From: Serpens gallinarum
GTDB lineage: Bacteria; Pseudomonadota; Gammaproteobacteria; Pseudomonadales; Pseudomonadaceae
DNA length: 64,000 bases
Reading direction: 5' to 3'
Assembly (NCBI RefSeq): GCF_014836765.1
Contig: NZ_JACSQG010000002.1
Coordinates: forward strand, 248,001-312,000
Shown piece after piece: positions 35,987 through 58,084 of this stretch (position 1 is the first letter of the stretch; each line of letters starts with the position of its first letter). The notes beneath the pieces are model-generated. The model saw nothing but the letters and a program-made list of their open reading frames with translations, searched no databases and was not told the DNA's origin. The translations under genes and the position numbers were made by a program.

Positions 35987-36718
35987 TTAGCGGAACGTGC
36001 TAGTCACTACGCCTTCGCCCGTCACTTGCGTCTCGATGATTTTTTCGCTGCTCTGATTACGCACCCTGATGAGGTCACCGGCGCTGCCGTTGCTCAAGGC
36101 CTCGCCTTGCGTCGCGGCTTCGATGCCGTCATGGGTGGCGACAATGGTTACCATCTGGCCACGCCGCACCAGCAAGGGCGCGCCGAGCAACCGCGGGCTG
36201 AGTACCTGGCCGGTGCGAATACGCCGCTTGGCGCTGAGGCCTTCGATGTCGGCAACTCGACCATAGAACCCTTGGCGATTCTTGCTGACACTTTGCCGGC
36301 GGGCGAGTACATCGTCGGCGCTGAGCGACTGGTCGCGTTCCAGAGTATGGCGGGCGACCAGCAGCCGTACGCTGATGTCGGCCTGGCTGGTCACGTTCAC
36401 GCTCCAGGCGGGCGCGGCGCACTCGATTCGGTAGCGTTGCCGACTGAGGAGTGCCGGGCGGGGTGACAGGTTATTGACCTGTAAGTCCTGCGTACAGACC
36501 GGCAATTTTTGCGTGCTGCTGGGCAGTGTGTTGTCCAGATGCAGGCGTGGCTGCTGCCAGCCATGCTGGCGGATCTCGTGATGCAGGAGCGGCTGTAAAT
36601 GATTGCGCAGCGCCTGATCAATCTGTTCGCTGACGCCGCCAGCCTGGCTTTGCGAAGCAAGCAACATGACCAGGCAGGCGGAAGCAACACTTCCGCTGCG
36701 GCGTCCTTTTGCCGTCAA
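35987..36718 (-). CDS. flgA: Flagellar P-ring assembly chaperone FlgA (lateral type)
   Basis: FlgA is a periplasmic chaperone that helps FlgI build the P ring. The product has a signal peptide (hydrophobic SVASACLVMLLASQSQA) and a C-terminal SAF domain with LLVRRGQMVTIVATHDGI and SAGDLIRVRNQSS. The start is uncertain: a TTG at 36718 gives a 243-residue protein with a proper signal peptide, while another TTG at 36778 gives 263 residues with a poor one; neither has a strong ribosome site. It diverges from flgB, and unlike the polar locus of Pseudomonas it has no flgM or flgN after it. Confidence 0.82.
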   Translation of the reverse strand: MTAKGRRSGSVASACLVMLLASQSQAGGVSEQIDQALRNHLQPLLHHEIRQHGWQQPRLHLDNTLPSSTQKLPVCTQDLQVNNLSPRPALLSRQRYRIECAAPAWSVNVTSQADISVRLLVARHTLERDQSLSADDVLARRQSVSKNRQGFYGRVADIEGLSAKRRIRTGQVLSPRLLGAPLLVRRGQMVTIVATHDGIEAATQGEALSNGSAGDLIRVRNQSSEKIIETQVTGEGVVTSTFR

Positions 36719-36801
36719 AGACGGAAATCCGCGTCCCCGACGATCGTCTGTAACGCTGATAAAGCCTAACAAAATCAATTACCTGCTAAATGATAGCGGA
36801 A

Positions 36802-36817
36802 TGGCATGAAAGCTGCT
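36802..36817 (+). promoter_or_regulatory. Putative sigma-54 promoter of the flgB operon
   Basis: TGGCATGAAAGCTGCT matches the -24/-12 consensus TGGCACG-N4-TTGCW closely, with the key GG and GC dinucleotides correctly spaced. The -12 element is about 36 bases before the flgB start codon. Sigma-54 control of the hook genes is usual for both polar and lateral systems; the activator (LafK or FleQ type) is not in this window. Confidence 0.65.
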
Positions 36818-36851
36818 GTCCACTCCCCAGTGACGGTTTTTTGGGGGAAGC

Positions 36852-37211
36852 ATGAGTATACGGATTGATGACGTGGTTGGGCTGCATGCCCATGCGCTCG
36901 AAGTGCGCATGCAGCGCAGCGAAATTATTGCCGCCAACCTGGCCAACGTAGACACCCCGGGCTTTCAAGCCCGCGATATTGACTTCGCCCGGGAAATGAG
37001 CCGCCTGGAAAGCAGTGCCGAACTGTCTCAGTCCAGCCTCGCTTCGCCGTTGCAGTACCGGGTGCCGTTCCAGGCGTCTCTGGATGGCAATACCGTGGAG
37101 CTGGGTGTCGAACAGGCCGAGTTCTCGCGTAACGCCATGGACTTCCAGACCAGCCTGACCTTCCTAACCATGAAATTTCGCGGCCTCAAGCAGGCCATTG
37201 AAGGACGTTGA
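36852..37211 (+). CDS. flgB: Flagellar proximal rod protein FlgB (lateral type)
   Basis: FlgB is a rod component joining the MS ring to the distal rod. The 119-residue protein has the axial-protein N-terminal signature EIIAANLANVDTPGFQARDIDF near residue 26 and the C-terminal helix FLTMKFRGLKQAIEGR. GGGGAAGC lies just before the ATG. It is the first gene of flgBCDEFGHIJKL; flgC follows two bases after the stop. Confidence 0.93.
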   Translation: MSIRIDDVVGLHAHALEVRMQRSEIIAANLANVDTPGFQARDIDFAREMSRLESSAELSQSSLASPLQYRVPFQASLDGNTVELGVEQAEFSRNAMDFQTSLTFLTMKFRGLKQAIEGR

Positions 37212-37213
37212 CG

Positions 37214-37642
37214 ATGGCCTTTGAATCCATTTACCGCATCGCCGGCTCAGCGATGAATGCCCAGACGGTACGCCTGAACACCGTGGCCAGTAACCTGGCC
37301 AACATCGATTCGGCGGCCACGTCCGCCGAGGATGTCTATCAGGCGCGCCGGCCACTGTTCGCCGCCGTGTACAACAACGATGAGCTGACGCGAGGCGTCG
37401 GCATGGGCGGTGCCCATGTACAGGTGCTCGATGTGGTCGCCGACCAGCGTGAGGCGGTGAAGCGTTACGAGCCCGGCAACCCCTTGGCGGGCGCCGATGG
37501 CTACGTCTTTTACCCGGCGGTCAATCAGATCGAGGAAATGACCGACATGATGTCGGCGACCCGCAGCTTCGAGACCAGCGTCGAAGTCCTCAATCGCCTC
37601 AAAAGCATGCAGCAGGGTCTGCTGCGTCTCGGAGAAGCCTGA
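37214..37642 (+). CDS. flgC: Flagellar rod protein FlgC (lateral type)
   Basis: FlgC is a proximal rod protein. The 142-residue product has the NTVASNLANIDSAATSAEDVYQ N-terminal motif and the C-terminal axial motif SATRSFETSVEVLNRLKSM. The ATG at 37214 has AAGGA eight bases upstream, within the flgB end. Its stop overlaps the flgD start (TGATG). Confidence 0.93.
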   Translation: MAFESIYRIAGSAMNAQTVRLNTVASNLANIDSAATSAEDVYQARRPLFAAVYNNDELTRGVGMGGAHVQVLDVVADQREAVKRYEPGNPLAGADGYVFYPAVNQIEEMTDMMSATRSFETSVEVLNRLKSMQQGLLRLGEA

Positions 37643-38307
37643 TGAGCGTTGATTCGATCAACTACTCGCGCAGTAGCGCGCTGACCAATGAAAACGCGCT
37701 GCCCAGTGCAGCAGTGGACCTCAGCGAATTGGGCGTGATGGAGAACAACTTCATCTCTCTGATGGTTGCGCAGATCCAGAACCAGGATCCGACCAACCCG
37801 GTGGACAGCAGCCAGTTCCTCCAGCAGTACGCCAGCATGTCGCAGGTCAAGAGCATGGAGAACATGGCCACCCTGCAGCAGAGCAGCCTGGTGCTGGCCG
37901 ACAATCTGCAGACCCTGACTGCTGCGGGACTGGTAGGTCAGGAAGTGTCGGTGAACGTAGAGAGCCTCGAGCTGAATGATCAGCCGGTCAACGGTCAGTT
38001 CACTCTGGATAACTACTCGGGCAAGACCAGCCTGCTGCTGACCGACTCCAATGGCACTGAAACCGTCATTCAGCTGGGTGAGCAGGCTGCCGGCAAGGTC
38101 GCCTATACCGTCGATCCTGTGGCGCTGGGCCTCAAGCCCGGCCAATACAGCATTCAGGCATTCAACGCCGACGATCAGCGCCTGACCGTCGAGGTCAACG
38201 GCCTGGTCAAGGATGTGCGCGTCAGCAACACCGGGCCGGTCCTCAACATCGCCGGCGCCGGCAGCGTGCCGTTCTACAACATCGTCGAGTTCGGCCAGCG
38301 CAGCTGA
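37642..38307 (+). CDS. flgD: Flagellar hook scaffold protein FlgD (lateral type)
   Basis: FlgD caps the growing hook and is discarded later. The 221-residue protein has the conserved N-terminal block FISLMVAQIQNQDPTNPVDSSQFLQQYA near residue 35, needed for cap function, and C-terminal tudor/FnIII-like domains. Its start overlaps the flgC stop by one base. Length is normal. Confidence 0.93.
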   Translation: MSVDSINYSRSSALTNENALPSAAVDLSELGVMENNFISLMVAQIQNQDPTNPVDSSQFLQQYASMSQVKSMENMATLQQSSLVLADNLQTLTAAGLVGQEVSVNVESLELNDQPVNGQFTLDNYSGKTSLLLTDSNGTETVIQLGEQAAGKVAYTVDPVALGLKPGQYSIQAFNADDQRLTVEVNGLVKDVRVSNTGPVLNIAGAGSVPFYNIVEFGQRS

Positions 38308-38336: not shown

Positions 38337-39533
38337 ATGAGCTTCAACATTGCCCTGACCGGCCTCAACGCCGTCACCGAACAACTGAATACTGTCAGTA
38401 ACAACATCGCCAATACCGGCACCACCGGCTTCAAGTCCTCGCGCACCGAGTTTGGCAGCGTCTATGCCGACACCCAGGCCATGGGCGTGGAGGTACTCGG
38501 CAACACCCAGAGCATCAGCCTCGGCGGCGCGCTGGTGAACACCGGCCGTACCCTGGATATGGCCATCTCCGGTGGCGGCTTCTTCGTGGTCAAGGGCACC
38601 AGTGGCGAGACTCAGTACACCCGTGCCGGGGTATTCGGCACTGATGCGGCCAACTACATCGTCAATGCCGCCGGGCAAAAGCTGCAGGGCTACCCCACCG
38701 ACGCCGACGGCAACCTGCTGACGGGTAGCTTGGGCGATCTGCGCATCAAGGCATCCACTCTGCCGGCCAAGGCGACCGACAGCTTGGAGTTCGTCGCCAA
38801 CTTGGATGCAAACGAGGTTCCACCAGCAGTGGCCTTCGATCCGGCTAATCCAGGCGATCCCAATGGGTACAACCACACCTATACAACCAAGGTGTACGAC
38901 TCGTTGGGTAAGGAGCATACCCTGACCCAGTACTTTGTTAATACTGGGGCCAATACATGGGACGCTCATTACTACCTCAATGGAGCTGCGATGACTCCGG
39001 CTTCGCAGGCGATAACCTTTAATACGGACGGCAGCCTTGATACGGGTGGGGCTGTAACCCTTGACGGTATTACGCCTCCCGGCGCTACTCCCTTGGAAAT
39101 CGTTATCGACTACACCGGCACCAGCCAGTATGGCACCGACTTCGGTGTCTCCACCAACCTGGCATCGGGCTACACCTCCGGTGAACAGACCGGCGTGGGC
39201 ATCGACAGCAAGGGCAATGTGTTCGTCAACTACAGCAACGGCCAGAGCCAGCAGCAGGGCCAGGTCGTGCTGGCCAGCTTTATCAACGCCGAAGGGCTGA
39301 AGAACGTCAGCGGCACCTCCTGGGTGGAAACCATCGACTCCGGCGCTGCGCTGATCGGCACTGCGGGCGTTGCCCAGTTCGGCAAGATCAACGCCGGGAC
39401 CCTGGAAAACTCCAACGTCGACCTGACTGAGGAACTGGTGACCTTGATGCAGGGCCAGCGCAACTACCAGGCCAACACCAAGGTGATCTCCACCCAGAAG
39501 GATCTCGACCAGATCCTGTTCAGCGCGATGTAA
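38337..39533 (+). CDS. flgE: Flagellar hook protein FlgE (lateral type)
   Basis: FlgE polymerises into the hook. The 398-residue product has the axial N-terminal motif TVSNNIANTGTTGFKSSRTEF near residue 23 and the C-terminal YQANTKVISTQKDLDQILFSAM. At 398 residues it is close to the lateral and enteric size and shorter than many polar Pseudomonas FlgE proteins. AGGAAAG precedes the ATG. It has a large Thr/Ala/Gly-rich middle, as expected for surface-exposed domains. Confidence 0.93.
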   Translation: MSFNIALTGLNAVTEQLNTVSNNIANTGTTGFKSSRTEFGSVYADTQAMGVEVLGNTQSISLGGALVNTGRTLDMAISGGGFFVVKGTSGETQYTRAGVFGTDAANYIVNAAGQKLQGYPTDADGNLLTGSLGDLRIKASTLPAKATDSLEFVANLDANEVPPAVAFDPANPGDPNGYNHTYTTKVYDSLGKEHTLTQYFVNTGANTWDAHYYLNGAAMTPASQAITFNTDGSLDTGGAVTLDGITPPGATPLEIVIDYTGTSQYGTDFGVSTNLASGYTSGEQTGVGIDSKGNVFVNYSNGQSQQQGQVVLASFINAEGLKNVSGTSWVETIDSGAALIGTAGVAQFGKINAGTLENSNVDLTEELVTLMQGQRNYQANTKVISTQKDLDQILFSAM

Positions 39534-39546: not shown

Positions 39547-40275
39547 ATGGATCGTTTGGGTTATACCGCGATGACTGCGGCCAATCGCAGCATGCAGGCA
39601 CTGCAGATTCACGCCAACAACCTGGCGAACGTGAACACCGCCGGCTTTCGCGCCGACATGGAACGTGCCGCCGCCGTCGAGGTGGAAGGCTACGGTTACG
39701 ACAGCCGTCATATGGCGCGGGTGGAGAACAACGGCGTCGACCTTACCCCGGGCCCGGTGAATTTCACCGGCCGGGCGCTGGACGTGGCGGTCAAGGGCCA
39801 AGGCCTGCTGACCGTGCAAAATGGCGCCGGCGCCGAGGCGTATACCCGCAACGGCAGCTTGCAGGTAGACGCCGAAGGGCAACTGACTGTCGGTGGTCGC
39901 CTGCTGCTGGGTGAGGATGGCCCGCTGGTGCTGCCGGAGTACGATCAACTGCATATCGGCACAGACGGCACGGTGTCGGTGGTGCCGCGTGGCGATTTCC
40001 TGATGGTCGAGGTGGGCCGTATCCGCCTGGTCGACAGTCAGGGCGCAGACCTGATGAAGAATGCCCAAGGGCTACTGATCCCGCGCGACAACCAGCCCTT
40101 GGCAGCCAACGAAGACATCACGCTAGCCAGCGGTTATCTGGAATCGAGCAACGTCTCGTCCATCGACCAGTTGGTATCGACCATGAGCCTGAGCCGCCTG
40201 TTCGAAACCCAGGTGAAGATGATGAAAGCCGCCGAAAACCTCTCCGAGGCAGGCAATCGGCTGATTCGCGGCTAA
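39547..40275 (+). CDS. flgF: Flagellar rod protein FlgF (lateral type)
   Basis: FlgF is a proximal rod protein. The 242-residue protein has the HANNLANVNTAGFRADMER motif near residue 22, the FTGRALDVAVKGQGLLTVQ segment near 73, and the C-terminal rod motif STMSLSRLFETQVKMMKAAE. It follows flgE by 13 bases. A 207-base gap with palindromes separates it from flgG, an unusual break in this operon. Confidence 0.92.
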   Translation: MDRLGYTAMTAANRSMQALQIHANNLANVNTAGFRADMERAAAVEVEGYGYDSRHMARVENNGVDLTPGPVNFTGRALDVAVKGQGLLTVQNGAGAEAYTRNGSLQVDAEGQLTVGGRLLLGEDGPLVLPEYDQLHIGTDGTVSVVPRGDFLMVEVGRIRLVDSQGADLMKNAQGLLIPRDNQPLAANEDITLASGYLESSNVSSIDQLVSTMSLSRLFETQVKMMKAAENLSEAGNRLIRG

Positions 40276-40482: not shown

Positions 40483-41265
40483 ATGAGTTCGGCACTTTGG
40501 GTCAGCAAGACCGGTCTGGTCGCCCAGGATATGGCAATGACCACCGTGGCCAACAACCTGGCCAACGTGAATACCGTCGGCTTCAAGAGCGACCGCGCAG
40601 TATTCGAGGACCTGTTTTACGCCATCGAGGTGCAGCCCGGCGCCCAGGCCGATCAGGTCAACACCGTGCCGTCCGGCCTGCAGATGGGCAATGGCGTGCG
40701 CGTGGTCGGTACCCAGAAGGTCTTTACCGAAGGCAACATCCAGACTACTGGCCAGCCGATGGACCTGGCGATCATCGGCCAGGGCTTCTTTCGTGTGCAA
40801 GGCCCCAATGGCGAGGACTATTACACCGAGAACGGCCAGTTCCAGCTTAATGCCGAAGGCATGATGGTCAATTCCCAGGGGCTGCCGCTGGCCGATGAGA
40901 TTCTCGTGCCGGAAGGCAGCAGCGGTTTCACTGTGGGCAGCGACGGCACCGTGACCGTGGTCAATGCCCAAGGGGTGACCGAAGACCTGGGTCAGATCCA
41001 GTTGGTCAACTTCCTCAACCCGGCTGGTCTGGAGGCCCTGGGCGGCAACCTGTACCGCGAAACCGTGGCCAGTGGCGAACCGGTTGAGGGTACTGCGGGT
41101 GAGGATGGCCTTGGACAACTCAAGCAGCGCGTGCTGGAAGGTTCCAACGTGCAGGTGGTCGAGGCCATGGTGCAGATGATCGCCATCCAGCGCGCCTACG
41201 AGGCCAACGCCAAGGTGCTCGACGCCAGCTCCGGCATGCAGCAATTCCTCAACCAGACCGTTTGA
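40483..41265 (+). CDS. flgG: Flagellar distal rod protein FlgG (lateral type)
   Basis: FlgG forms the distal rod. The 260-residue protein begins MSSALWVSKTGLVAQDM, with the motif VANNLANVNTVGFKSDRAVFEDL near residue 22, DLAIIGQGFFRV near 91 and the C-terminal MVQMIAIQRAYEANAKVLDASSGM. AGAGGATT precedes the ATG. Length equals that of E. coli FlgG. Confidence 0.94.
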   Translation: MSSALWVSKTGLVAQDMAMTTVANNLANVNTVGFKSDRAVFEDLFYAIEVQPGAQADQVNTVPSGLQMGNGVRVVGTQKVFTEGNIQTTGQPMDLAIIGQGFFRVQGPNGEDYYTENGQFQLNAEGMMVNSQGLPLADEILVPEGSSGFTVGSDGTVTVVNAQGVTEDLGQIQLVNFLNPAGLEALGGNLYRETVASGEPVEGTAGEDGLGQLKQRVLEGSNVQVVEAMVQMIAIQRAYEANAKVLDASSGMQQFLNQTV

Positions 41266-41933
41266 TGACCATGATGCGCACGCTTTGTCTGTGGATTGCT
41301 GTGCTAATGCTCGGTGGGTGCGCCAGCTTCCACGAGCTGCGCGAAGACGCCGATACCACCGATTATGCTCCGCCGGAACTGGACTACGAGCAGTCGACGA
41401 CGGTGGCGGGAGGGTTGTACCGGGGCTTTGGCAGCTCGTTGATCAACGACAACCGCGCTTTCCGGGTTGGCGACATCCTCACTGTGGTGCTCAACGAATC
41501 GACCCAATCGAGCAAGAGCGCCGGTACCAGCTTTGGCAAAGAGTCCTCCATCGGTATCGGCGTGCCCAATGTCTTCGGTCGCGAGTACGACCGCCTCGGG
41601 GCGTCCGCCGATGCCCAGCGCGACTTCTCCGGTTCGGCGAAAAGCTCGCAGCAGAACACCCTGCTCGGCTCCATCGCGGTCACCGTGCACAAGGTGCTGC
41701 CCAGTGGCGTGCTGCTTGTGCGCGGCGAGAAGTCGTTGCGCCTCAACCAGGGCGATGAATTCATCCGCCTGAGCGGTCTGGTACGTCCCGACGATATCAA
41801 CCGCTTCAACCAGGTGTCCTCGCAGAGCATCGCCGATGCGCGGATCTCTTATGCCGGGCGCGGCGTGCTCAACGACAGCAACTCGGCCGGCTGGCTGACG
41901 CGCTTCTTTACCAGCCCCTGGTTCCCCTTCTAA
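41265..41933 (+). CDS. flgH: Flagellar L-ring lipoprotein FlgH (lateral type)
   Basis: FlgH is the outer-membrane L-ring subunit. The 222-residue product has a lipoprotein signal with lipobox LGGC near residue 20, so the mature protein starts with an acylated Cys. Conserved segments include NRAFRVGDILTVVLNES and a C-terminal GVLNDSNSAGWLTRFFTSPWFPF. Start codons at 41265, 41271 and 41274 are all possible; the first overlaps the flgG stop (TGATG). Confidence 0.92.
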   Translation: MTMMRTLCLWIAVLMLGGCASFHELREDADTTDYAPPELDYEQSTTVAGGLYRGFGSSLINDNRAFRVGDILTVVLNESTQSSKSAGTSFGKESSIGIGVPNVFGREYDRLGASADAQRDFSGSAKSSQQNTLLGSIAVTVHKVLPSGVLLVRGEKSLRLNQGDEFIRLSGLVRPDDINRFNQVSSQSIADARISYAGRGVLNDSNSAGWLTRFFTSPWFPF

Positions 41934-41945: not shown

Positions 41946-43037
41946 ATGCGCAAGCTTCTCCCCCTTCTGTTGCTGCTGGCCCTGCCCTGCGCCCGGGCCG
42001 TGCCGCTGATGGACCTGGTGGATGTCGAAGGCATCCGCGACAACCAATTGATCGGCTATGGCCTGGTGGTCGGCCTGGATGGCTCGGGTGACAAGAACCA
42101 GGTACGTTTCACCAACCAGGCGATGGCCAACCTGGTCAAGCAGTTCGGCGTCAACCTGCCGGCCAACGTCGATCCCAAACTGAAGAACGTCGCCTCGGTG
42201 ACGGTCACCGCCAGCGTGCCACCGTCCTACAGCCCAGGGCAGAGCATTGACGTCACGGTGTCGTCATTGGGCGATGCCAAGAGTTTGCGCGGCGGCCAGC
42301 TGCTGCTCACCCCACTGCATGGCGTGGACGGCGAAATCTACGCCCTGGCCCAAGGCAGCCTGGTGGTGGGCGGCCTGAAGGCTGAAGGCAGCAGCGGCTC
42401 CAGCGTGTCGATCAACAGCGCGACCACGGGCCGGATCGCCAACGGCGCTACTGTCGAGCGCATGATCCCCAGCGATTTCGCCAAGCGCCCGGACATCATG
42501 CTCAATTTGCGCAACCCCAGCTTCCAGACCGTCACCCGTGTGGTGGATGCGATCAATGAGCGCATCGGTCCCGGCACGGCGACGGCGCTGAACGCCACCA
42601 AAGTGTCGGTGCGCGCACCGGTCACCAGCACCCAGCGTATGAGCTTCATGGCCATGCTGGAAATGGTGGATGTGCGCGAGGGTCGCGAGCGACCCAAGGT
42701 GGTGTTCAACAGCCGCACCGGCACCGTGGTGATTGGCGAGGGCGTACGCGTCAAGGCCGCGGCCGTGTCCCACGGCAACCTGACCGTGACCATCAGCGAA
42801 AACCCGCAGGTCAGCCAGCCCGCGCCGTTCAGCCAGGGCCAGACGGCCGTGGTGCCCCGTTCGGAGCTGGAAGTCACCCAGGACCGCAACGCCATGTTCC
42901 GCTGGCCGGAAGGCGCCAATCTGGAAAGCATTATCAATACCGTGAACAGCCTGGGCGCCACGCCGGATGACGTAATGAGCATTCTCCAGGCCCTGGAGCG
43001 CGCTGGCGCCCTCAACGCCGAACTGATTGTGATCTGA
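41946..43037 (+). CDS. flgI: Flagellar P-ring protein FlgI (lateral type)
   Basis: FlgI forms the periplasmic P ring around the rod, with FlgA as its chaperone. The 363-residue protein has a signal peptide ([15 protein letters not shown]) followed by the family's [28 protein letters not shown] and [31 protein letters not shown] ending. The length is standard. It lies 12 bases after flgH and two before flgJ. Confidence 0.95.
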
Positions 43038-43039: not shown

Positions 43040-43540
43040 ATGAGTATTCTCAACCTTCCGAATACGCTGCAGTCCTGGCGCAACGCCCCGGAGCACACCG
43101 GCATCTCGCGCAACGACCAGTTGCAGGCCGCCGCCGAGCAGTTCGAAGCGATGTTCCTGCAACAGATCCTCAAACAGATGCGCAAGGCCAGCGATGTGCT
43201 GTCCGAAGGCAGCTCGATGCGCAGTCGCGAGTTGGACACCATGCGCGACTTTTACGACGACGTGCTCGCCGAAAAACTGGCCGGCCAGCGCAACACCGGC
43301 ATCGCCGACATGCTGGTCGAGCAACTGGGCGGCGAGCCGGTGGCCGCGCTGCCCAGCCAGGCGTTGCAAGCGCCGCTGACCGGTAGCTGGGCGCAATCGC
43401 ATGCGGCATTTAAGCCGGCAGGCGAAACGGTCGCCTTGAATCAGCAACTGGCGTCGAATACCTCCACGCCCCCTCATCAAGCGCTGTCGGCGGCTTTTGC
43501 CCAGCCGATTCGTCCTGACACCAAGGAGAATCGCTCGTGA
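43040..43540 (+). CDS. flgJ: Short FlgJ, rod cap without peptidoglycan hydrolase domain
   Basis: This 166-residue protein has only the N-terminal rod-cap part of FlgJ: AAEQFEAMFLQQILKQMRKASDVL near residue 31 and MRDFYDDVLAEKLAGQ near 71. Polar FlgJ of gammaproteobacteria is about twice as long and carries a C-terminal glucosaminidase; that domain is absent here, and no frameshift explains it because flgK follows at once with overlap. Short FlgJ is typical of lateral flagellar systems, so a separate enzyme must open the cell wall. Confidence 0.88.
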   Translation: MSILNLPNTLQSWRNAPEHTGISRNDQLQAAAEQFEAMFLQQILKQMRKASDVLSEGSSMRSRELDTMRDFYDDVLAEKLAGQRNTGIADMLVEQLGGEPVAALPSQALQAPLTGSWAQSHAAFKPAGETVALNQQLASNTSTPPHQALSAAFAQPIRPDTKENRS

Positions 43541-48080: not shown

Positions 48081-48259
48081 CGGTCTTCCTTCCGTAGGGT
48101 GGGTTAACCCACCGATGCGGTCTTTGTAGCGGGCAGCAGCCCATCCGTGGAGATACTCGGATGGGATCTCGCCGTCGGCGATAACAGTGTGGCCCACTTG
48201 GGCTTATGCGGATGTATAGCCGATATAAATCGATAAATGAAGCGCGCTAACGCAAGATC

Positions 48260-48937: not shown

Positions 48938-49427
48938 GCCGGAGCTCCAGGTTCGGGTGAAAGTCGGCCGAGGGGCTGGCGCAAGCGCGCTGGCGGCGTA
49001 TGGGACGTTGCGTATTTTCGCTGCAAGACGCCGCGAGCGCCTTGATGGGGTTCGCAGGCTGCTGAGTCTATGTCGATCGGGTTGTCCTGGCCGTATCGGG
49101 CACGATTCCAGGGCTGTGGCCGATAAAGCTTTGGTGTGCGCCTCCTTGCGGGTTGTACTCGAGCACTGTCTCTAGAGGCTGCGGTCCCCTCATTTATTAG
49201 CGTCAGAACCTTGGCGCTTAAGCCCTAAGGCGTTTCGGTCGCCTGTGTCTATCAAATCCACCGCCAGCTGGAATGCGGAAGCGGTGTTTCCGCATCGAGC
49301 GCGCGCCGGGGTATTAGGTGCTCCGCGCGGAAGCGGAGTTTCAGCTGCGAACGGCGCTACGGCCAATTTTATACAGCATGGCGTTTTGGCATCGGAATTG
49401 CCTCCCATCTATCAAGGGGTACCAGAC
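48938..49427. other. Divergent promoter region and long leader of fliD
   Basis: These 490 bases have no supported gene. They hold the promoter of the TetR gene, a variant sigma-28-like motif at 49219-49243 reading toward fliD, and a roughly 180-base untranslated leader. The leader contains a nested structure at 49265-49347: outer CAGCTG/CAGCTG ends enclose the hairpins ATGCGGAA/TTCCGCAT and CTCCGC/GCGGAG. Confidence 0.6.
49219..49243 (+). promoter_or_regulatory. Variant sigma-28-like promoter of fliD (lafB)
   Basis: TAAG (49219-49222), then 15 bases, then GTCGCC (49238-49243). The flagellin gene has the same two blocks with the same 15-base spacing. The -35 part matches the sigma-28 TAAA block at three of four bases; the -10 part (GTCGCC) departs from GCCGATAA. 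It may be the site of the sigma factor encoded in this cluster. Confidence 0.5.
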
Positions 49428-50829: not shown

Positions 50830-51225
50830 ATGACCTACCACTACGAAGACAGCTACAACAGTTATCGCATGGTCGATCTCGAGTCGAAGGCCGCTGCGGC
50901 TTCGCCCTACGAACTGGTGCTGGTGCTGTTCGACGGTCTGCTCGACGAGCTGGCACGCACCCGTGGTCACATCGAAGGTAAGCGCTACCAAGAGAAAGGC
51001 CGCTCGATCGAGAAGAGCATCAATATTCTCAACGGGCTGTCCAGTTCCCTGGACTATGAAAACGGCGGCGAACTGGTTGCCGGTCTGGCGCGGTTGTACG
51101 ACTACTGCATCTACCGCCTGGCCGATGTCAGCGTGACGTTGTCGCTGGAAGGTCTGGACGAAGTGGTAAACCTGCTCGGCACGTTGCGCGAAGGGTGGGA
51201 GGGCGTGCGTGCCGCCCGCCAATGA
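50830..51225 (+). CDS. fliS: Flagellin export chaperone FliS (LafC)
   Basis: FliS binds the C-terminus of flagellin and prevents early polymerisation. The 131-residue helical protein has the family pattern YNSYRMVDLESKAAAASPYELVLVLFDGLLDELARTRGHIE and SLDYENGGELVAGLARLYDYCIYRLADVSV. It follows fliD by 19 bases and overlaps the next gene by 17. Confidence 0.92.
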   Translation: MTYHYEDSYNSYRMVDLESKAAAASPYELVLVLFDGLLDELARTRGHIEGKRYQEKGRSIEKSINILNGLSSSLDYENGGELVAGLARLYDYCIYRLADVSVTLSLEGLDEVVNLLGTLREGWEGVRAARQ

Positions 51226-51520
51226 GCTGCAGCGTCTGCACAATCTCAAGGTGCAACTCGAGCGGGTGCTGCATCTCGATGACTGGGACGCTATCCGCGA
51301 AATTGATCGCTCGCTGCGCGACATCCTGCTGAGCCTGCGCAAGCAGGGTGACGAGCCCAGCGCCGAACTGCTGGCCGCGTGCCGGGATGTTCAGCACTTG
51401 CACGGTCTGGCGCGCCAGCGCTGCCAGGAAGAATGTCAGCGCCTGCGGGTGCTGTTGGACAGTCACGAACAACCCGCAGATGGCCGAAGTGCTTATGCCT
51501 GGGTGGAGAGTCTGCGGTGA
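51209..51520 (+). CDS. FliT-like flagellar chaperone (LafX position)
   Basis: This is a 103-residue all-helical protein with many Leu, Arg and Glu residues, located between fliS and fliK where lateral clusters have lafX or lafD and other systems have fliT. FliT proteins are export chaperones for FliD. A GTG start at 51209 has GGGAGG six bases upstream inside fliS. Sequence similarity to FliT is weak by eye; the role is inferred from position, size and helical character. Its stop overlaps the fliK start. Confidence 0.65.
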   Translation: MPPANELQRLHNLKVQLERVLHLDDWDAIREIDRSLRDILLSLRKQGDEPSAELLAACRDVQHLHGLARQRCQEECQRLRVLLDSHEQPADGRSAYAWVESLR

Positions 51521-52581
51521 ATACAGCTGTGAGTATTAATCTGGCCGGACCTGTCCAGCAGGCGAACTCTGCCATCTTGCCCGCCGCTGCCGAGTCCGCA
51601 TCTGCCGCAGTTGTAGGAACCGCATCGCAGGATGTAGCCAACAACGCCCCTGAATTTGCGACGGAGCTGCATGCCAGCGCTGAGCTTCTGCCTGAATTAG
51701 TGGATGTACCGGCCGAGCTGGAGCCGGTCGAGTCTGGCGCAGTGGAGCCGACTTTGGTGGCCCCTGAAGGTGAAGCTGGCCTCGAGCAGATCGAAGCCCT
51801 GCTGGGCAGCCTGCTGGCCCAGCAACAGCAACAGGTTCAGGCCCAGCCAGCGACAAGCCAGAGCGCTGTGTTGGCGGATCGCGCGGCGCAATCCCTGCCA
51901 GGGCTGCCGGGTGATCGCCTGACGCAGCCACATATCGTCGACGGCAAGGCACCCGTCTTGCCAGCCCCGGTTGAAGTGCGCAGTGAAACACTCGCCGGCG
52001 CTGCGCGCGCCGAGGCCGCACCGCTCAATACCGGCAATGCTATCGGCACGACCGTGGATATGGCCGGGGGCAAAGCGGCCGAGGGCGAGACGTCAGCGGT
52101 GCTCTCCGGTCAGGCCAGTCAGCTACCGGCAGCGGTTAGCGCACTGCCGGAGCGAACCCTCAAACTACAAGGCTCGGACGCCCAGCGTGGCGAGCAGATG
52201 CTGCATGCACTGCGTGACAGCGTCGATATGCAGATACAACAAAAGGCGCAACGCGCCACCATTCGCCTGGACCCGCCGGAGCTGGGCAAGCTGGAAATCG
52301 TGGTCAGTCAAGAGGTGGGCCGCATCACCATTCAAATCAATGCGGGACAGGCCGATACCCTTAGATTGCTGCAGCAAACCAGTGACCGTCTGCGCCAGGA
52401 GCTGCTCACGCAGCATTTTGTTCAGGTCAACGTCCAGGTCGGTGCCGACAGTCAGTCGGGTCAGCAGTCACGCCAGGAGCCACTGCGCTACGCGGAGAAC
52501 GCGGTACGGGACAACGTCCTGGAGCCAAGCGGGGACGACACCCGCCAGCGTGATACCTCCGATGTGCTGGTTACGGTCTGA
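51517..52581 (+). CDS. fliK: Hook-length control protein FliK (LafE)
   Basis: FliK measures hook length and switches export specificity. The 354-residue product has a long low-complexity Ala/Glu/Pro/Gln-rich N-terminal ruler (to about 210) and a C-terminal Flg_hook domain with the conserved RLDPPELGKLEIVVSQEVGRITIQI near residue 250 and QELLTQHFVQVNVQV near 292. The GTG start at 51517 overlaps the previous stop (GTGA) and has GGAGAG eight bases upstream. Confidence 0.9.
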   Translation: MNTAVSINLAGPVQQANSAILPAAAESASAAVVGTASQDVANNAPEFATELHASAELLPELVDVPAELEPVESGAVEPTLVAPEGEAGLEQIEALLGSLLAQQQQQVQAQPATSQSAVLADRAAQSLPGLPGDRLTQPHIVDGKAPVLPAPVEVRSETLAGAARAEAAPLNTGNAIGTTVDMAGGKAAEGETSAVLSGQASQLPAAVSALPERTLKLQGSDAQRGEQMLHALRDSVDMQIQQKAQRATIRLDPPELGKLEIVVSQEVGRITIQINAGQADTLRLLQQTSDRLRQELLTQHFVQVNVQVGADSQSGQQSRQEPLRYAENAVRDNVLEPSGDDTRQRDTSDVLVTV

Positions 52582-52613: not shown

Positions 52614-53087
52614 ATGAGGTCATCCCGCGTTATCGTCGTGCTGCTGGTACTCAACATCATTGTGGTGGGTACAGCGTTGGCGGCTTTTTTTATGACTCAG
52701 CGCCCGTTTACGGGTGAGCTGCACGCGGCCGATGGTGATTCCGCCCAACAGTTGCGGGAGCTGAGCGAGCTGTCGGCCTACCAGTTTCTGCCCATCGAGA
52801 AAATCATCATTGGTGTGCGCGGGGCCAAACGTGAACATTACGTGGTGATTGACCTGGCGTTGCAGATCAGCGCCAAGGTCGACAGCAAGCTTCTGCCACC
52901 GTTGGTGCCGGTGGTGCGCAATTCGGTGGTCGCCGAATTGTCAGGCATGCGTTACGAGACACTGCGCAAGATGTCCATTATCGAACTGCAGGCGCTGATC
53001 GAGCAGACCCTGTTTGATGATTTTGCCGCACGCCAGCTCAAGGCACCGTTCGAGCACGTGTTGGTCAGCAAGATGCTCGCGCAATAA
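52614..53087 (+). CDS. fliL: Flagellar basal-body protein FliL (LafF)
   Basis: FliL is a single-span membrane protein that stabilises stators. The 157-residue protein has an N-terminal membrane span (VIVVLLVLNIIVVGTALAAFFM) and the FliL periplasmic domain with YQFLPIEKIIIGVRGAKREHYVVIDLALQI and a C-terminal LIEQTLFDDFAARQLKAPFEHVLVSKM. AGAGAGAA precedes the ATG. Its stop lies two bases before fliA. Confidence 0.88.
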   Translation: MRSSRVIVVLLVLNIIVVGTALAAFFMTQRPFTGELHAADGDSAQQLRELSELSAYQFLPIEKIIIGVRGAKREHYVVIDLALQISAKVDSKLLPPLVPVVRNSVVAELSGMRYETLRKMSIIELQALIEQTLFDDFAARQLKAPFEHVLVSKMLAQ

Positions 53088-53089: not shown

Positions 53090-53821
53090 ATGAACAGCCC
53101 CTGCGTCGTCGAGACAGCCTACCCTGGGCATAGCGCCCCGCCGCTGTTCGCTCCGCAGGACGAGCAGCGCTGGCTATTGCGTTATCTGCCGCTGGTCAAG
53201 CGCATTGTCAGCCAGCTGGCACTGCAGGCCAGTTCGACGCTGGATCGCGAAGACATGGAGCAGATCGGCCTGCTCGGCCTGCTCGACAGCCTGCGTCGTT
53301 ATGGCGAGCCGGATGAGGCATTTGGTCGCTTTGCCAGCCTGCGCATTCGCGGTGCGATCCTCGATGAGTTACGTCGCCAGGACTGGCGGCCACGGCAAGT
53401 GCGTCAGCAGAGCCACAAGATGCGCGATGGCGTGCGTGCCCTGGCGCGCCAGCTAGGGCGTGAGCCGAGCGATGAGGAAATCCGTACGCACCTCGGCGTG
53501 GATGAAGACGCCTACCACGCGTATTTGCTGGACCAGTCCGGCGAAGCGATCGAAAGCCTCGATGCGTTGCTGCAGGACGGCCATGAACCGAACGCCAATG
53601 TCACCGAGGGGTTCGAGCAGCGCGTGCATCAGGAACGCCTGTTGGCCCAGGTGCTGGGCCGGCTGTCCGAGCGCGAACAGTTGGTGTTGACCCTGTACTA
53701 CCAGCACGACCTCAGTCTCAAGGAGATCGCGCTGGTGCTGGACCTCAGCGATGCACGGATTTGCCAGCTGATCAAGCAGGCCGTCAAACGGGCCTGTGTC
53801 TTTTTAACCGAGCCTAATTAG
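53090..53821 (+). CDS. fliA: Sigma-28 family factor FliA (LafS)
   Basis: This is a flagellar sigma factor for late lateral genes. The 243-residue protein has region 2 with LPLVKRIVSQLALQASSTLDREDMEQIGLLGLLDSLRRYGEPDEAFGRFASLRIRGAILDELRRQDW compressed here to its landmark RIRGAILDELR, region 3 with REPSDEEIRTHLGVDE, and region 4 with LSLKEIALVLDLSDARICQLIKQAVKR. Its place next to fliL and motAB matches LafS. The anti-sigma factor FlgM is not in the window. Confidence 0.92.
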   Translation: MNSPCVVETAYPGHSAPPLFAPQDEQRWLLRYLPLVKRIVSQLALQASSTLDREDMEQIGLLGLLDSLRRYGEPDEAFGRFASLRIRGAILDELRRQDWRPRQVRQQSHKMRDGVRALARQLGREPSDEEIRTHLGVDEDAYHAYLLDQSGEAIESLDALLQDGHEPNANVTEGFEQRVHQERLLAQVLGRLSEREQLVLTLYYQHDLSLKEIALVLDLSDARICQLIKQAVKRACVFLTEPN

Positions 53822-53831: not shown

Positions 53832-54704
53832 ATGCAGAAAATTTTCGGATCTCTCCTCATTGTCGCGTGTGTACTGGGTGGTTATGCCCTGGCCAACGGC
53901 AACCTGGCCATGCTCTGGCAGCCTGCAGAATTGCTCATCATCGTCGGCGCCGCCCTGGGCAGCCTGATCGTGGGTAATCCCAAGGAAGTGCTGATCGAAA
54001 TGCTCAAGCAGATCAAGGGTGTGGTGGTCTACAAACGGCGCGGGGAAGAATTCCAGCGTCAACTGCTGATGCTCCTCTATGAGTTGCTGGAAATGGTCGA
54101 AATCGGCGGCCTCAAGGTGCTCGATGAGCACATCGAGGAGCCGGAGAAGAGCGAGCTGTTTGCCAAATACCCACTCATCCTCGCCGAACCCAACCTGATG
54201 GCCTTCATTGCCGACAACTTCCGCCTGATGGCGATGGGCAAGATCAGTGCCCACGAACTGGAAGGTTTTCTCGACCAGGAACTGGAAGCCATGGAGGAAA
54301 CCCTGCTGCTGCCGTCGCGCTCGCTCAATCAGGTCGGCGAAGCGATGCCCGGCTTCGGTATTCTCGCCGCAATCATGGGCATCATCATCACCATGGGTAA
54401 TATTGGCGGCTCGGTTGCGGAAATCGGTGCCAGTGTCGCTGCTGCGCTGGTCGGCACCTTCCTTGGCATCTTCTTCTGCTACTGCGTAATGCAGCCGCTG
54501 GCCACGGCCATGTCGCAACGCATCCGCACCGAATTGTCGGCTCTGGAATGTGTGCGCACCACGCTGGTCGCCCATGTGGCCGGTAAGCCGACGCTATTGT
54601 CGGTGGACGCCGGTCGCAAACTGATCGAGCAGGACGTCAAGCCGGCGTTCAGCCTGCTCGAATCCTGGGTCAACCGCTATGAGGAAGAGCGGGACGCAGC
54701 ATGA
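53832..54704 (+). CDS. motA: Stator protein MotA (LafT)
   Basis: MotA forms the ion channel of the stator with MotB. The 290-residue protein has four membrane spans (about 1-20, 33-53, 170-192 and 204-225) and a cytoplasmic loop with the conserved charged residues that face the rotor FliG. AEIGASVAAALVGTFLGIFFCYCVMQPLA marks the third and fourth spans. It starts 11 bases after fliA and overlaps motB by four. Confidence 0.92.
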   Translation: MQKIFGSLLIVACVLGGYALANGNLAMLWQPAELLIIVGAALGSLIVGNPKEVLIEMLKQIKGVVVYKRRGEEFQRQLLMLLYELLEMVEIGGLKVLDEHIEEPEKSELFAKYPLILAEPNLMAFIADNFRLMAMGKISAHELEGFLDQELEAMEETLLLPSRSLNQVGEAMPGFGILAAIMGIIITMGNIGGSVAEIGASVAAALVGTFLGIFFCYCVMQPLATAMSQRIRTELSALECVRTTLVAHVAGKPTLLSVDAGRKLIEQDVKPAFSLLESWVNRYEEERDAA

Positions 54705-55645
54705 GCAGCTTGAGAAGGAAGGGCGATAAGGATCGCGAGATTGTTATCAAGCGGCGTCGTAAGAAGGGTCACGAAGGCGCTCACAGTGGTGCCTGGAAGG
54801 TCGCCTTTGCTGACTTTACCCTGGCGATGATGGCGCTGTTCATGGTGTTGTGGATCATCAATCCAAGTAAGACGTCTTCGCCCCTCAGCGCCGACGACCC
54901 GGTCAGCAACCCGCTGATGGAAGGCATGGTCGGTGCCAATATGTTCGACAACATCAGCGAGCTGCCGATCGACCTGGACGGCAGCGTGCGCGAGATCCAG
55001 CCCGAGCCGCAAGATATCAGGCAGTACAACACCCGCGAAGATCTGGAGCAGTTGGCGGATCTGATCGAGGAGCTGTCTGGTGAAGTGGATGCGCTGTCCA
55101 ACCTCGAAGTCATCGTGGTGCCGCAAGGGCTGCGCATTCTGATCAAGGACGACCAGCAGCGCTTCATGTTCGAGCGCGGCAGCGCGCGGCTCAATCCGCA
55201 TTTCCAGCGTTTGCTGACCAGCCTGGCGCACATGCTGGCCAAGGTCGAAAACCGCCTGATCATCAGCGGCCACACCGACGCAACGCAGTACCGCAAGAGC
55301 GCTACCTACAACAACTGGAACCTGTCCGGGGATCGCGCGCTGCTGGCGCGAAACGTGATGGTCAATGCCGGCCTGCAGGCGACGCAGGTGCTGCAAGTCT
55401 CGGCCTTGGCCGACGTCATGCCGCTGCGCGCAGACAATCCGCGCGACGGCGCCAACCGACGCATTGAACTGTTGCTGCTGACGGAAAAATCCGAAGGGCT
55501 GTACCGCGACCTGTTCGGCGAAAGCTACCCGCAGCTGCATTACACCCAGGACGGCACGCGTTTGAAGGTGCCAGAGAAGGTTGTACAGCCCGCTCCTGTT
55601 AGCGTGCTGAACAAAAAAGAGGCTGACACGCTCTGGGTGGAGTAA
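54701..55645 (+). CDS. motB: Stator protein MotB (LafU)
   Basis: MotB couples ion flow to torque and anchors the stator in peptidoglycan. The 314-residue protein has a basic cytoplasmic start, one membrane span with the essential Asp in AFADFTLAMMALFMVLWII near residue 43, a plug region and an OmpA-like domain with SGHTDATQYRKSATYNNWNLSGDRALLARN near residue 190. Its ATG overlaps the motA stop (ATGA). It is the last gene of this plus-strand operon. Proton or sodium use cannot be told by eye. Confidence 0.92.
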   Translation: MSSLRRKGDKDREIVIKRRRKKGHEGAHSGAWKVAFADFTLAMMALFMVLWIINPSKTSSPLSADDPVSNPLMEGMVGANMFDNISELPIDLDGSVREIQPEPQDIRQYNTREDLEQLADLIEELSGEVDALSNLEVIVVPQGLRILIKDDQQRFMFERGSARLNPHFQRLLTSLAHMLAKVENRLIISGHTDATQYRKSATYNNWNLSGDRALLARNVMVNAGLQATQVLQVSALADVMPLRADNPRDGANRRIELLLLTEKSEGLYRDLFGESYPQLHYTQDGTRLKVPEKVVQPAPVSVLNKKEADTLWVE

Positions 55646-56162: not shown

Positions 56163-56723
56163 TCACAGTCCTGGCAGATTGGCCGCACAGGTGGCGAGCA
56201 AGGGGGTGAAGCCAAGCAGTGCTACCAGTCGCCACCAGCTCGGCAGTTTGCGGCGGGTGTTGCTCGTGTTGCAGTCCAGTGAGGCCTGAACCGTAGCGGG
56301 CGTCTCGGCGGAAGAAGCCGGTAATACCTGCTCGACCTCGATATAGTCCGGGTTGAACAAATACCCCCGACGCGGCAGGGTCTGGATGATCTGCCGGCCT
56401 TTTTCGTCGCCGAGAATCTGCCGCAGCACATAGATCTGCTGGTTCAAACTGCCCTGGCTGACCACGCGGTCGGCCCAGGCGTAGCCGAGCAGCTCCTCGC
56501 GGGTTACCACCTCGCCGGGAGTCTGCAGCAGGCGCTCCAACACCCGGCTGCCGGCGAAACCCAGGTCGACACGTTCGGTGTCGCCTTGCTCGGGCTGCAG
56601 GCGCAACTGGTATTGCTGCGGCTGGAACAGGGCGCGGCAGGCGCTCCGGCCTGTGCGCAGCGTGAAGGAATCGGCAGACCAGGGGCTGTCGACTACGGCG
56701 TGCTGGAGGGCTTGACTGTTCAT
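56163..56723 (-). CDS. lafZ: Membrane-bound winged-helix regulator, LafZ-like
   Basis: This 186-residue protein has an N-terminal OmpR/ToxR-type winged-helix DNA-binding domain (about residues 30-125; landmarks VLERLLQTPGEVVTREELLGYAW and QQIYVLRQILGDEKGRQIIQTLPRRGYLF) and one membrane span near the C-terminus (WWRLVALLGFTPLLATCAA). That is the layout of CadC/ToxR regulators, but without a real periplasmic sensor domain. E. coli Flag-2 carries a membrane regulator, LafZ, beside its flagellin gene; here the gene is 440 bases downstream of the flagellin on the same strand. ATG at 56723 is used; the ribosome site is weak. Confidence 0.6.
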   Translation of the reverse strand: MNSQALQHAVVDSPWSADSFTLRTGRSACRALFQPQQYQLRLQPEQGDTERVDLGFAGSRVLERLLQTPGEVVTREELLGYAWADRVVSQGSLNQQIYVLRQILGDEKGRQIIQTLPRRGYLFNPDYIEVEQVLPASSAETPATVQASLDCNTSNTRRKLPSWWRLVALLGFTPLLATCAANLPGL

Positions 56724-57091
56724 GGGCAAAGGTCACTAAAGGTGTAATGGGACGTGCGTCAAAAAAGTGATGCCAAGGTGAAGGCATAGAGGTGATAGCA
56801 AGGATCGTTCCCATTTTCTGTCGCCACGGGAAGATCTATTTCCGCTGCCGATGGCAGGGGGCGAATTCATTGCTCGGTAACAGCTTCGGCCCGAGGTCGA
56901 GCCTCCCACACAAGATAGGTGGCCAGCACGGAGTTTCACTGTGGGAGCGGCGACCTCGCCGCGAAGACGGGTCATGGCCGGAACACGCGGCTGTGCTCGG
57001 TAACAGCTTCGGCCCGAGGGCGGGCCTCCCACACAAGATGGGTGTCAGTTTTTACGCCGGGGTACGGTGTTTATGTGTGTTTAAACAAAAC
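56724..57091. repeat. Repeat region with two 50-base direct repeats
   Basis: Two near-identical copies of TGCTCGGTAACAGCTTCGGC followed by CCGAG and GCCTCCCACACAAGAT lie at about 56871-56917 and 56995-57041. Between them is a REP-like gtgggagcggcgacctcgcc. No gene is supported here. A weaker relative of the repeat lies near 34057. Confidence 0.65.
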
Positions 57092-57117
57092 AAAAAACCC
57101 GCCGAAGCGGGTTTTTT
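57092..57117 (-). terminator. Rho-independent terminator of the flagellin gene
   Basis: AAAAAACCCGC-CGAA-GCGGGTTTTTT is a perfect 11-bp stem with a U-run on the minus strand, about 45 bases after the flagellin stop codon. A second perfect hairpin (TTTCACCCGGG...CCCGGGTGAAA) lies between it and the gene at 57124-57149. Confidence 0.88.
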
Positions 57118-57161
57118 GAGCGATTTCACCCGGGCGTCCCCGGGTGAAAAGGCGGCAGGGC

Positions 57162-57998
57162 TTAGCCCAGCAGAGACAGAGCCAGGCTCGGCATCTGGCT
57201 GGTCTGCTTGAGCATGGCGATGCCGGACTGCATGAGCATGTTGTTCTTGGCCATCGTCGCGCTTTCGGCGGCGAAGTCGGTGTCCATGATGCGGCCCTTG
57301 GCGGTGTTGGTGTTGTCCGCCATGTTGGCCAGGTTGTTGATGGTGTGGTTCAGGCGGTTGATGTTGGCACCCATGGCACCGCGTGCCGCGCCGACATCGG
57401 TCAGCAGAGTGTTCAGCTTATCAATCTCGCCCTTCGCGGCGCCAGAGGCGGTAATGTCGGTCGAGAGGGTAGTGACGTCAATAGCGTTAATATCACCACT
57501 GACGTCAATGTCCAGTGTTTCAGCGGAGGACGAGCCGATTTGCAGGGTCAGCGCTTGAACCAGTTTGCCGGTACCCGATGCGAACAGGTTGTTGTCAGCG
57601 CCGTAGCTGGTGTTAGCCAGGATGTTCGTCAGTTCAGCGCTCAGCTCGGTGTATTCAGCATCCAGGGCGGTGAGGTCGTCGGCGCTGTTCGTGCCGTTGG
57701 CGGCCTGGGTGGCCAGGTCCTTCATGCGCAGCACAACGTTGGTGAATTCGTTCAGCGCGCCTTCGGCGGTTTGCAGCAGGGAGATACCGTCCTGGGCGTT
57801 ACGCATGGCAACGGCCTGGCCACGGGCTTGGGCGTTCAGGCGGGTGGCGATTTGCAGGCCAGCGGCATCGTCAGCAGCGCTGTTCACGCGCAGACCGGTA
57901 CCCAGACGCTGCTGGTTGGTGCCCAGTGCGCTGTTGGTCTTGCTCATGTTGGTCTGGGTCAGCGATGCGGCGTAGTTGGTATGAATCGAGATGGCCAT
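57162..57998 (-). CDS. lafA: Short flagellin LafA
   Basis: This is the filament subunit. The 278-residue protein has the N-terminal D0/D1 region (NSALGTNQQRLGTGLRVNSAADDAAGLQIATRLNAQARGQ, landmark RVNSAADDAAGLQI near residue 36) and the C-terminal D1/D0 end (AKNNMLMQSGIAMLKQTSQMPSLALSLLG). The variable middle is very short, so the filament surface should be smooth, as in other lateral flagellins. The ATG at 57998 has GGAGG six bases upstream; a longer frame to 58277 runs through the MITE-like element and is spurious. No glycosylation gene is adjacent. Confidence 0.93.
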   Translation of the reverse strand: MAISIHTNYAASLTQTNMSKTNSALGTNQQRLGTGLRVNSAADDAAGLQIATRLNAQARGQAVAMRNAQDGISLLQTAEGALNEFTNVVLRMKDLATQAANGTNSADDLTALDAEYTELSAELTNILANTSYGADNNLFASGTGKLVQALTLQIGSSSAETLDIDVSGDINAIDVTTLSTDITASGAAKGEIDKLNTLLTDVGAARGAMGANINRLNHTINNLANMADNTNTAKGRIMDTDFAAESATMAKNNMLMQSGIAMLKQTSQMPSLALSLLG

Positions 57999-58059
57999 GT
58001 GGGCCTCCATCAAAAAATTGGCTTGGAAAGCTGGCTTCGATTGCCCGCTATACAGGTAG

Positions 58060-58084
58060 GGCGACGGACTTGAAGCAGGACTTA
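58060..58084 (-). promoter_or_regulatory. Variant sigma-28-like promoter of the flagellin gene
   Basis: On the minus strand TAAG (58084-58081) and GTCGCC (58065-58060) are separated by 15 bases, exactly as before fliD. The bases after TAAG also agree (TCCT here, CCCT at fliD). The motif ends about 60 bases before the flagellin start codon. Confidence 0.55.

Follow-up and report, generated by a model that had tools for sequence, protein, structure and literature searches.

The Flag-2 locus of Escherichia coli FORC_031 and the lateral flagellar loci of Vibrio campbellii, Aeromonas and Photobacterium are the described systems closest to the one reported here, and LafK, LafZ and LafW are flag-2-only proteins among Enterobacterales loci, as stated in a portion of PMC7526173. 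The genus Pseudomonas is regarded as polarly flagellated. That lateral flagella occur in P. stutzeri and P. mendocina has long been known from microscopy. An excerpt of PMC5773237 mentions a P. stutzeri lateral flagellin, the genus Serpens is described in a section of PMC10797017, and the review table in PMC8191957, as far as its excerpt goes, lists Serpens flexibilis as 'bipolar and lateral'. Among the matches listed for open-licence papers, none was a paper on a Pseudomonadaceae lateral gene cluster. We analysed a 64,000-nucleotide stretch of the Serpens gallinarum genome (the window; positions 248001-312000 of contig C2, genome size 3.91 Mb), in which lateral flagellar genes span positions 35987-57998. 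The organism is a near relative of Pseudomonas flexibilis, and a preliminary description of the window had read these genes as a complete lateral-type flagellar cluster inserted in a Pseudomonas core genome.

Gene content and family placement

The window very probably contains one half of a second, lateral (Flag-2-type) flagellum that is apparently intact: its axial, late and flagellin genes. The other half is on the same contig, about 155 kb upstream. Family searches recovered every gene named in the preliminary description at its position, but the cluster is not complete, the export and C-ring half being outside the window. The remaining laf genes, for which a search had been proposed (lafK, fliE-J, fliM-R and flhAB), were found at C2:112591-127550. 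On the minus strand this second block carries a flgN-like gene, flgM, fliJ, fliI, fliH, fliG, fliF, fliE and the sigma-54 activator gene lafK; on the plus strand it carries fliM, fliN, fliP, fliQ, fliR, flhB and flhA (lateral-type FlhA, C2:125040-127136), followed by a PilZ gene on the minus strand. Genes of this block that were not covered by family searches were named by best-match comparison with Flag-2. Together the two blocks amount to a full set; export gate, MS ring and C ring are all represented.

We also looked for filament and motor genes elsewhere in the genome and found a separate polar set, in agreement with the earlier proposal of a second flagellum besides a polar one. Contig C1 holds flhA, genes for a signal recognition particle-type GTPase (FlhF-like) and a MinD/ParA-type ATPase (FleN-like), fliA, CheY-like and CheA-like genes and a MotA/B-type pair, and contig C8 holds fliC, flgB-L, a gene for a LafK/FleQ-like activator, fliM, fliN, a fliO-like gene and fliP. 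The genome has two FlgI proteins, 52% identical, two FliM/FliN pairs, and four Flagellin_N matches, two per system. Genes for a lateral-type flagellar system, of a kind already known, are present alongside the polar set.

The lateral identity of the system was upheld by trees of FlgI and FlhA and by best matches. In the FlgI tree (39 proteins, with E. coli K-12 on a long branch) the protein of the window clusters first with lateral proteins from other Pseudomonadaceae and then with those of Aeromonas and Photobacterium (100/96), and the organism's own polar FlgI and that of P. aeruginosa fall outside the lateral group. In the FlhA tree (24 proteins), for which the program warned of long E. coli branches, the lateral rows and an E. 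coli LfhA fragment form one side (100/100). Neither tree placed the lateral genes with Pseudomonas polar proteins. When scored against the whole Flag-2 locus of E. coli FORC_031 and against a polar/flag-1 set, 37 of 40 system proteins scored higher with Flag-2. LafK is 49% identical to E. coli Flag-2 LafK, and LafT, at 64% to Flag-2 LafT, is only 42% identical to the nearest other MotA of the same genome. The features of the window are as follows.

35618-35759, no strand: REPIN-like element at the left end of the flagellar stretch, two inverted repetitive extragenic palindromic (REP) copies with 92 nt between the arms
35987-36778, minus: flgA, P-ring chaperone (TIGR03170, 123 bits)
36852-37211, plus: flgB (family search; 51% to Flag-2 LfgB)
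37208-37642, plus: flgC (family search; Flag-2 comparison)
37642-38307, plus: flgD (family search; Flag-2 comparison)
38337-39533, plus: flgE, hook (NF005286, 513 bits)
39547-40275, plus: flgF (family search)
40483-41265, plus: flgG (family search)
41262-41933, plus: flgH, L-ring (family search)
41946-43037, plus: flgI, P-ring (family search; FlgI tree)
43040-43540, plus: flgJ, rod-binding half alone, 166 amino acids, without the muramidase half (family search)
43537-44910, plus: flgK (family search)
44964-45866, plus: flgL (family search)
45883-46929, plus: lafW, axial protein, hook-associated and flagellin/FlgL-like (25.5% to E. coli Flag-2 LafW, E=2e-12; model and fold search)
46974-48197, minus: aguA, agmatine deiminase, non-flagellar (TIGR03380, 586 bits)
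48260-48937, minus: TetR-family regulator, non-flagellar (family search)
49245-50810, plus: lafB (fliD), filament cap; start codon uncertain, probably further in (family search; Flag-2 comparison)
50830-51225, plus: lafC (fliS) (family search; Flag-2 comparison)
51209-51520, plus: FliT-like chaperone at the lafX position (Pfam FliT, E=0.004, sub-threshold; 28% to an open reading frame of the organism's own polar region)
51379-52581, plus: lafE (fliK); the listed reading frame start overlaps fliT and the real start is probably later (family search; Flag-2 comparison)
52614-53087, plus: lafF (fliL) (family search)
53090-53821, plus: lafS (fliA), sigma-28 (family search; Flag-2 comparison)
53832-54704, plus: lafT (motA) (TIGR03818; Flag-2 LafT identity as above)
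54701-55645, plus: lafU (motB) (top NCBIfam match is the LafU model, below cut-off; 41% to Flag-2 LafU)
56163-56729, minus: lafZ, winged helix (Trans_reg_C, 5e-14) with a C-terminal hydrophobic segment (29.5% to Flag-2 LafZ, E=1e-13)
57162-57998, minus: lafA, lateral flagellin (NCBIfam NF038071 'lateral flagellin LafA', 368.5 bits, cut-off 365; Flag-2 comparison)
58120-58261, no strand: REPIN-like element at the right end of the flagellar stretch, inverted REP pair

Because lafA exceeds the NCBIfam cut-off for LafA, the lateral flagellin family already has a public name. The reading of the late genes as lafBCXEFSTU, with LafA in addition, was borne out by family searches and Flag-2 comparison, FliT/X being a weak match, and the LafW- and LafZ-like genes earlier taken as Flag-2 marks do match their E. 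coli Flag-2 namesakes (E values above). A structural model of LafW built from 33 sequences (mean predicted local distance difference test score, pLDDT, of 71) has long N- and C-terminal helices around a beta domain. All 16 PDB matches of this model at E<=0.001 are flagellins, and HAP-3 follows at rank 17. Since the template modelling (TM) scores of these matches are low, about 0.3, the kinship of LafW is at the level of a class, that of axial proteins of the hook-filament region.

Some results weigh against this reading. LafK scores slightly higher against an activator from the organism's polar region than against E. coli LafK, which is shorter; FliT scores higher against a protein of the polar region and has no convincing Flag-2 match, and PilZ has no match in the E. 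coli Flag-2 locus. For at least 10 proteins (fliF-J, fliK, fliL, fliQ, fliR, flgM and flgN) the polar counterpart was wholly or partly missing from the comparison set, and these proteins therefore say little on placement. Scans for sigma-54 and sigma-28 promoters gave no sites above the level of shuffled sequence.

In a working lateral flagellum the upstream block would supply the export gate, MS ring, C ring and master regulator. By analogy with characterised relatives, the sigma-54 activator LafK would turn on the early genes, and the sigma-28 factor LafS, held by FlgM, would turn on the flagellin and stator genes once the hook is complete. LafT and LafU would power rotation, perhaps as a proton-driven stator, on which their similarity to Flag-2 LafT/LafU bears, and the lateral filaments may serve movement in gels or on surfaces as in those relatives.

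An EIDAL-like peptide in lateral FliN

According to passages of PMC6946799, the EIDAL motif of FliM is bound by CheY, and sporadic copies of the motif, full or degenerate, are present in FliN and FliY. In monotrichous species FlhG binds to FliM, in B. subtilis to FliY; the 2025 review from which these statements come calls it unclear, in the part concerned, whether FlhG acts on lateral systems and via which protein (PMC12826062). The polar FliM of our organism has the N-terminus LLSQDEIDALLHG, and its polar FliN lacks such a peptide. The lateral proteins have the reverse arrangement: an EIDAL-type docking peptide for CheY/FlhG was present in none of 28 lateral FliM rows, and lateral FliN begins with an EIDAL-like peptide, which is LSNSEFESLIND here, in 30 of 32 rows. 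The rows were taken from 36 loci and the organism's own genome, with some loci ending before these genes; one mis-called FliN start (L182) was removed before the count of 32, and two mis-called FliM fragments (L183 and L186) were kept within the 28. The two FliN rows without the peptide are from P. fluorescens PS910 (L017), which is a near match, and from genome G051 (L142), probably of P. otitidis.

We consider it possible, though somewhat doubtful, that in the lateral motor of the Pseudomonadaceae the docking peptide was transferred from FliM to FliN. This would allow the polar CheY or FleN (FlhG) to control how many lateral flagella form, or in which direction or how fast they turn, in contrast to V. 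campbellii and E. coli Flag-2. The FleN-like and CheY-like genes of the genome encode possible partners. Since lateral FliM lacks the EIDAL-type peptide and lateral FliN begins with an EIDAL-like one, the lateral C ring would take its docking input via FliN instead of FliM. The competing explanation, to which we give an even chance of being correct, is that the FliN peptide has nothing to do with CheY/FlhG docking: the resemblance would be accidental, or the peptide would make a contact within the structure or with the export apparatus, for instance with FliH. This explanation has to contend with shuffles of the same segments, which gave an expectation of 0.0065 matches in 32, and with the conservation of the peptide: over the 29 distinct matching rows, identity is 63% within the 12-residue motif, a figure inflated by the selection of matching rows, versus 25% in the next 20 residues. 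Furthermore, when the first 30 residues of 512 of the organism's own predicted genes (those of the retrieved stretches, not the whole genome) were searched, the peptide was shared by two only, lateral FliN and polar FliM. In a model of FliN (mean pLDDT 68 overall) residues 7-15 form a predicted helix that is followed by a disordered linker, pLDDT being in the 50s in this part.

What tells against a docking function is that the lateral FliN proteins of E. coli Flag-2, V. campbellii and genome G571 lack an EIDAL-like peptide, and that a profile of the FliN peptide run against PDB sequences retrieved no FliM, its top match being a phycobilisome linker at a chance-level E value of 0.51. The sporadic motifs in FliN and FliY noted in the cited part of PMC6946799 also fit an unrelated peptide. 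FliM without a CheY-binding N-terminus is found in E. coli Flag-2 and in lateral FliM of V. campbellii as well. A profile of lateral FliM matched 71 of 369 genomes of the class at E<=0.001, but beyond our organism's own genome only G571 scored better than 1e-8 (2.8e-11); the other matches, mostly to the C-terminal domain, look like polar FliM. The lateral flagellum itself being of a known kind, the FliN peptide is the part of this system that may be new. A shift from FliM to FliN would point to a candidate protein and a 12-residue site for the question left by the review passage in PMC12826062.

Distribution, block arrangement and repeats

LafW is present in 78 of 298 Pseudomonadaceae species genomes and in 8 of 19 genera. 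Lateral-type FlhA accompanies it in 76 of these genomes and lateral-type MotA in 75. For a group regarded as polar-flagellated, it is noteworthy that about one in four sampled species has a lateral system, and the lateral genes are a possible genetic basis for the table entry on Serpens flexibilis (excerpt of PMC8191957). Two genomes, G197 and G238, retain lafW (with an internal stop in G238) and show no lateral-type flhA or motA; their lateral systems are likely decaying. In the FlgI tree, proteins from Parazoarcus (Zoogloeaceae), Alkalilimnicola and a metagenome-assembled genome (MAG) of the Lysobacteraceae (L066, L088 and L089) fall inside the Pseudomonadaceae lateral clade, which suggests transfer or, in the MAG, a binning error.

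The three markers flhA, motA and lafW lie on one contig within 60 kb in 51 of the 78 genomes, in the order flhA-motA-lafW in 49 and flhA-lafW-motA in 2. They are on one contig but more than 60 kb apart in four genomes including ours, and on different contigs, or with one marker absent, in 23. Contiguity was not treated as a defining feature of a lateral system, since three other genomes with all three markers on one contig also have them separated. Within the window itself the flagellar genes form two blocks, one on each side of an aguA-tetR pair (both minus strand, 46974-48937) that stands between lafW and fliD and was overlooked in the preliminary description. Among the named loci (L014-L089; L090, a 46-residue match in Prevotella, was excluded from the locus tables), late genes follow lafW only in P. 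thermotolerans and P. otitidis, as they do here. In these 76 loci lafA is on the minus strand upstream of flgA in 31, is not found within the retrieved stretch in 36 (for which mostly about 4 kb upstream of flgA was covered), and has its best match downstream in nine, of which seven are from Aeromonas or Photobacterium and two are weak (26-27%) at the place of flgL.

The genus was sampled by the genomes of two species, ours and P. flexibilis ATCC 29606 (G001), a contig stretch of which matches the named locus L015 without difference over 21,041 bases. P. flexibilis has the same lateral genes, at about 41-92% identity depending on the gene, in other blocks: flgA-lafW is on one contig, and a second contig holds aguA-tetR, the fli block, lafA-lafZ, the late genes and flgNM. 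Several rearrangements must separate the two species, and one insertion is insufficient, because the block arrangement differs. A normally contiguous lateral cluster is, from the gene orders compared, broken here into relocated blocks that are arranged otherwise in P. flexibilis, and this is a new point; the shuffled blocks are a case of a machine of about 40 genes that is split across a chromosome yet apparently intact.

The genus is also distinct in FlgJ. In 62 of 63 named Pseudomonadaceae loci FlgJ has 321-396 amino acids; the remaining locus is that of P. flexibilis, with 167. Together with the 166-residue lateral FlgJ of the window, these are the only proteins among the 63 loci and the window that lack the muramidase half. 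The organism's polar FlgJ has 385 amino acids, and another enzyme, perhaps this one, would have to open the cell wall for the lateral rods.

The flagellar stretch of the window is bounded by a 142-bp inverted REP pair, at 35618-35759 and again at 58120-58261. A 21-base core with up to 3 mismatches had no further match in the window, and an 18-base core had two weaker 3-mismatch copies inside the block, at 56114 and 56858. There are 73 REP matches in the genome, 45 of them on contig C10, and the remaining 28 group, in our own grouping, into about 18 elements across 3.9 Mb. On C10, a 119.5-kb contig (L163-L165), REP groups are dense and spaced by 120-250 bp in places, and two more REP elements lie in the flgI/flgH and flgF/flgE gaps of the polar flg region (L129:5202-5337 and 7975-7992).

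A REP element is also found beside the flgN end of the upstream fli block (C2:112412), and three of the four ends of the two lateral blocks bear a REPIN-like element. In P. flexibilis a related REP with 2 mismatches adjoins fliJ at the fli block's left end, and others lie between the blocks of that species. These positions suggest, without proof, that the blocks were relocated by recombination between REP-type repeats; the association was noticed post hoc, which counts against it and leaves it suggestive only. Coincidence is an evenly balanced possibility. Every block end is an intergenic gap, and REP-type elements prefer such gaps, as the two elements of the polar flg region illustrate. The concentration of matches on C10 and the two weaker core copies inside the block point the same way. 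Coincidence accounts less readily for the occurrence of an element at three of four lateral block ends when only some 18 exist outside C10, and for the related REP at the left end of the P. flexibilis fli block.

It is unlikely that the stretch is a recently acquired, perhaps decaying flagellar island between elbB and alkB/oscA-sbp. The flanks are as previously described, with hemB (ALAD) and elbB (DJ-1/PfpI), an oscA-like gene (DUF2292) and a gene for a solute-binding protein, and in P. flexibilis elbB and the gene of an RBBP9-like hydrolase, which flank the stretch here, are separated by less than 1 kb that is free of flagellar genes. This closeness, and the REPIN-like elements on both sides, would suit an island. 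However, P. flexibilis does not simply have an empty site there, since its hydrolase gene is inverted relative to ours; the same genes are present there in other blocks, the system extends over 8 of the 19 genera of the family, and no broken flagellar reading frame was seen here. Simple insertion at an empty site was likewise rejected as too simple, given the flipped elbB/RBBP9-like neighbours and the position of aguA-tetR and the fli and late blocks further along the same P. flexibilis contig. The claim of insertion into the core genome as a single event therefore does not stand, in view of the two blocks around aguA-tetR, the different arrangement in the sister species and the wide distribution of the system.

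A plasmid origin was considered as well: megablast of the 22-kb stretch against plasmids gave a single match with 2% coverage, in the polar flgI region of a megaplasmid from P. aeruginosa; it was used solely as a polar reference. This megaplasmid (NZ_CP131792.1, L125) is typed as conjugative and bears polar-type flgB-L, fliC, fliD and fleQ. Beside lafA, an AlkB-like (2OG-Fe(II) oxygenase) gene at 58327-58994 has an in-frame stop at 58758-58760. Because its P. flexibilis homologue aligns collinearly with both parts on either side of the stop, this is a broken gene or a sequencing error.

Comparison with known systems

It is hardly credible that this system is the sole or principal flagellum of the organism, or a duplicate of polar type such as the FlhDC-type second flagellum of P. 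fluorescens F113: gene count and order do amount to a full flagellum, and a few Pseudomonas strains have second flagella of another type (PMC5031763, in the passages concerned), but a separate polar set is present, the FlgI and FlhA trees and the best matches all point to Flag-2 lateral systems, the trees rule out a polar/flag-1 placement, the regulator identified is LafK, and LafW, LafZ and LafA are present too. Neither block has an FlhDC-like gene among those identified, no search having been aimed at FlhDC. The F113 system shares with the lateral flagellum described here the existence of a second flagellar gene set in a Pseudomonas; it differs, as an excerpt of PMC5031763 describes it, in being FlhDC-controlled and Azotobacter-like and in forming a polar tuft rather than lateral flagella.

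The E. coli Flag-2 locus resembles our system in gene content and in most of its local order (flhA-B, fli, lafK, flg, lafW, lafZ and lafA-U), and its flgJ is also reduced to the rod-binding half. It is a single stretch with flgMN beside flgA, whereas a single contiguous locus is not seen here, where two blocks are about 155 kb apart and one of them contains aguA-tetR. In our organism lafZ and lafA stand at the far end, past lafU, and FliN has the EIDAL-like N-terminus that E. coli LfiN lacks. The lateral system of V. campbellii has the same fli gene order, and its LafA is 56.6% identical; unlike our system, it has no EIDAL-like peptide in FliN or FliM. The lateral FlgI proteins of Aeromonas and Photobacterium group with that of the window, but in their loci with a lafA match the gene is downstream of the flg genes on the plus strand.

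MotL of Shewanella putrefaciens is, like the PilZ protein encoded here, a stand-alone PilZ protein within a lateral set, according to a section of PMC8203827. Our PilZ gene (Pfam PilZ) retains an RxxxR and a DxSxxG motif. MotL follows motB (same section of PMC8203827); here no PilZ-only gene stands directly after the lateral motB, and the PilZ gene follows flhA on the opposite strand.

The same genes as in our system are found in the Stutzerimonas, P. mendocina and P. nitroreducens groups and in P. flexibilis, with lateral FlhA 74-88% and MotA 78-92% identical. The arrangement differs: the markers are within 60 kb in 51 of the 78 genomes, while here the two blocks are about 155 kb apart and the late genes follow lafW.

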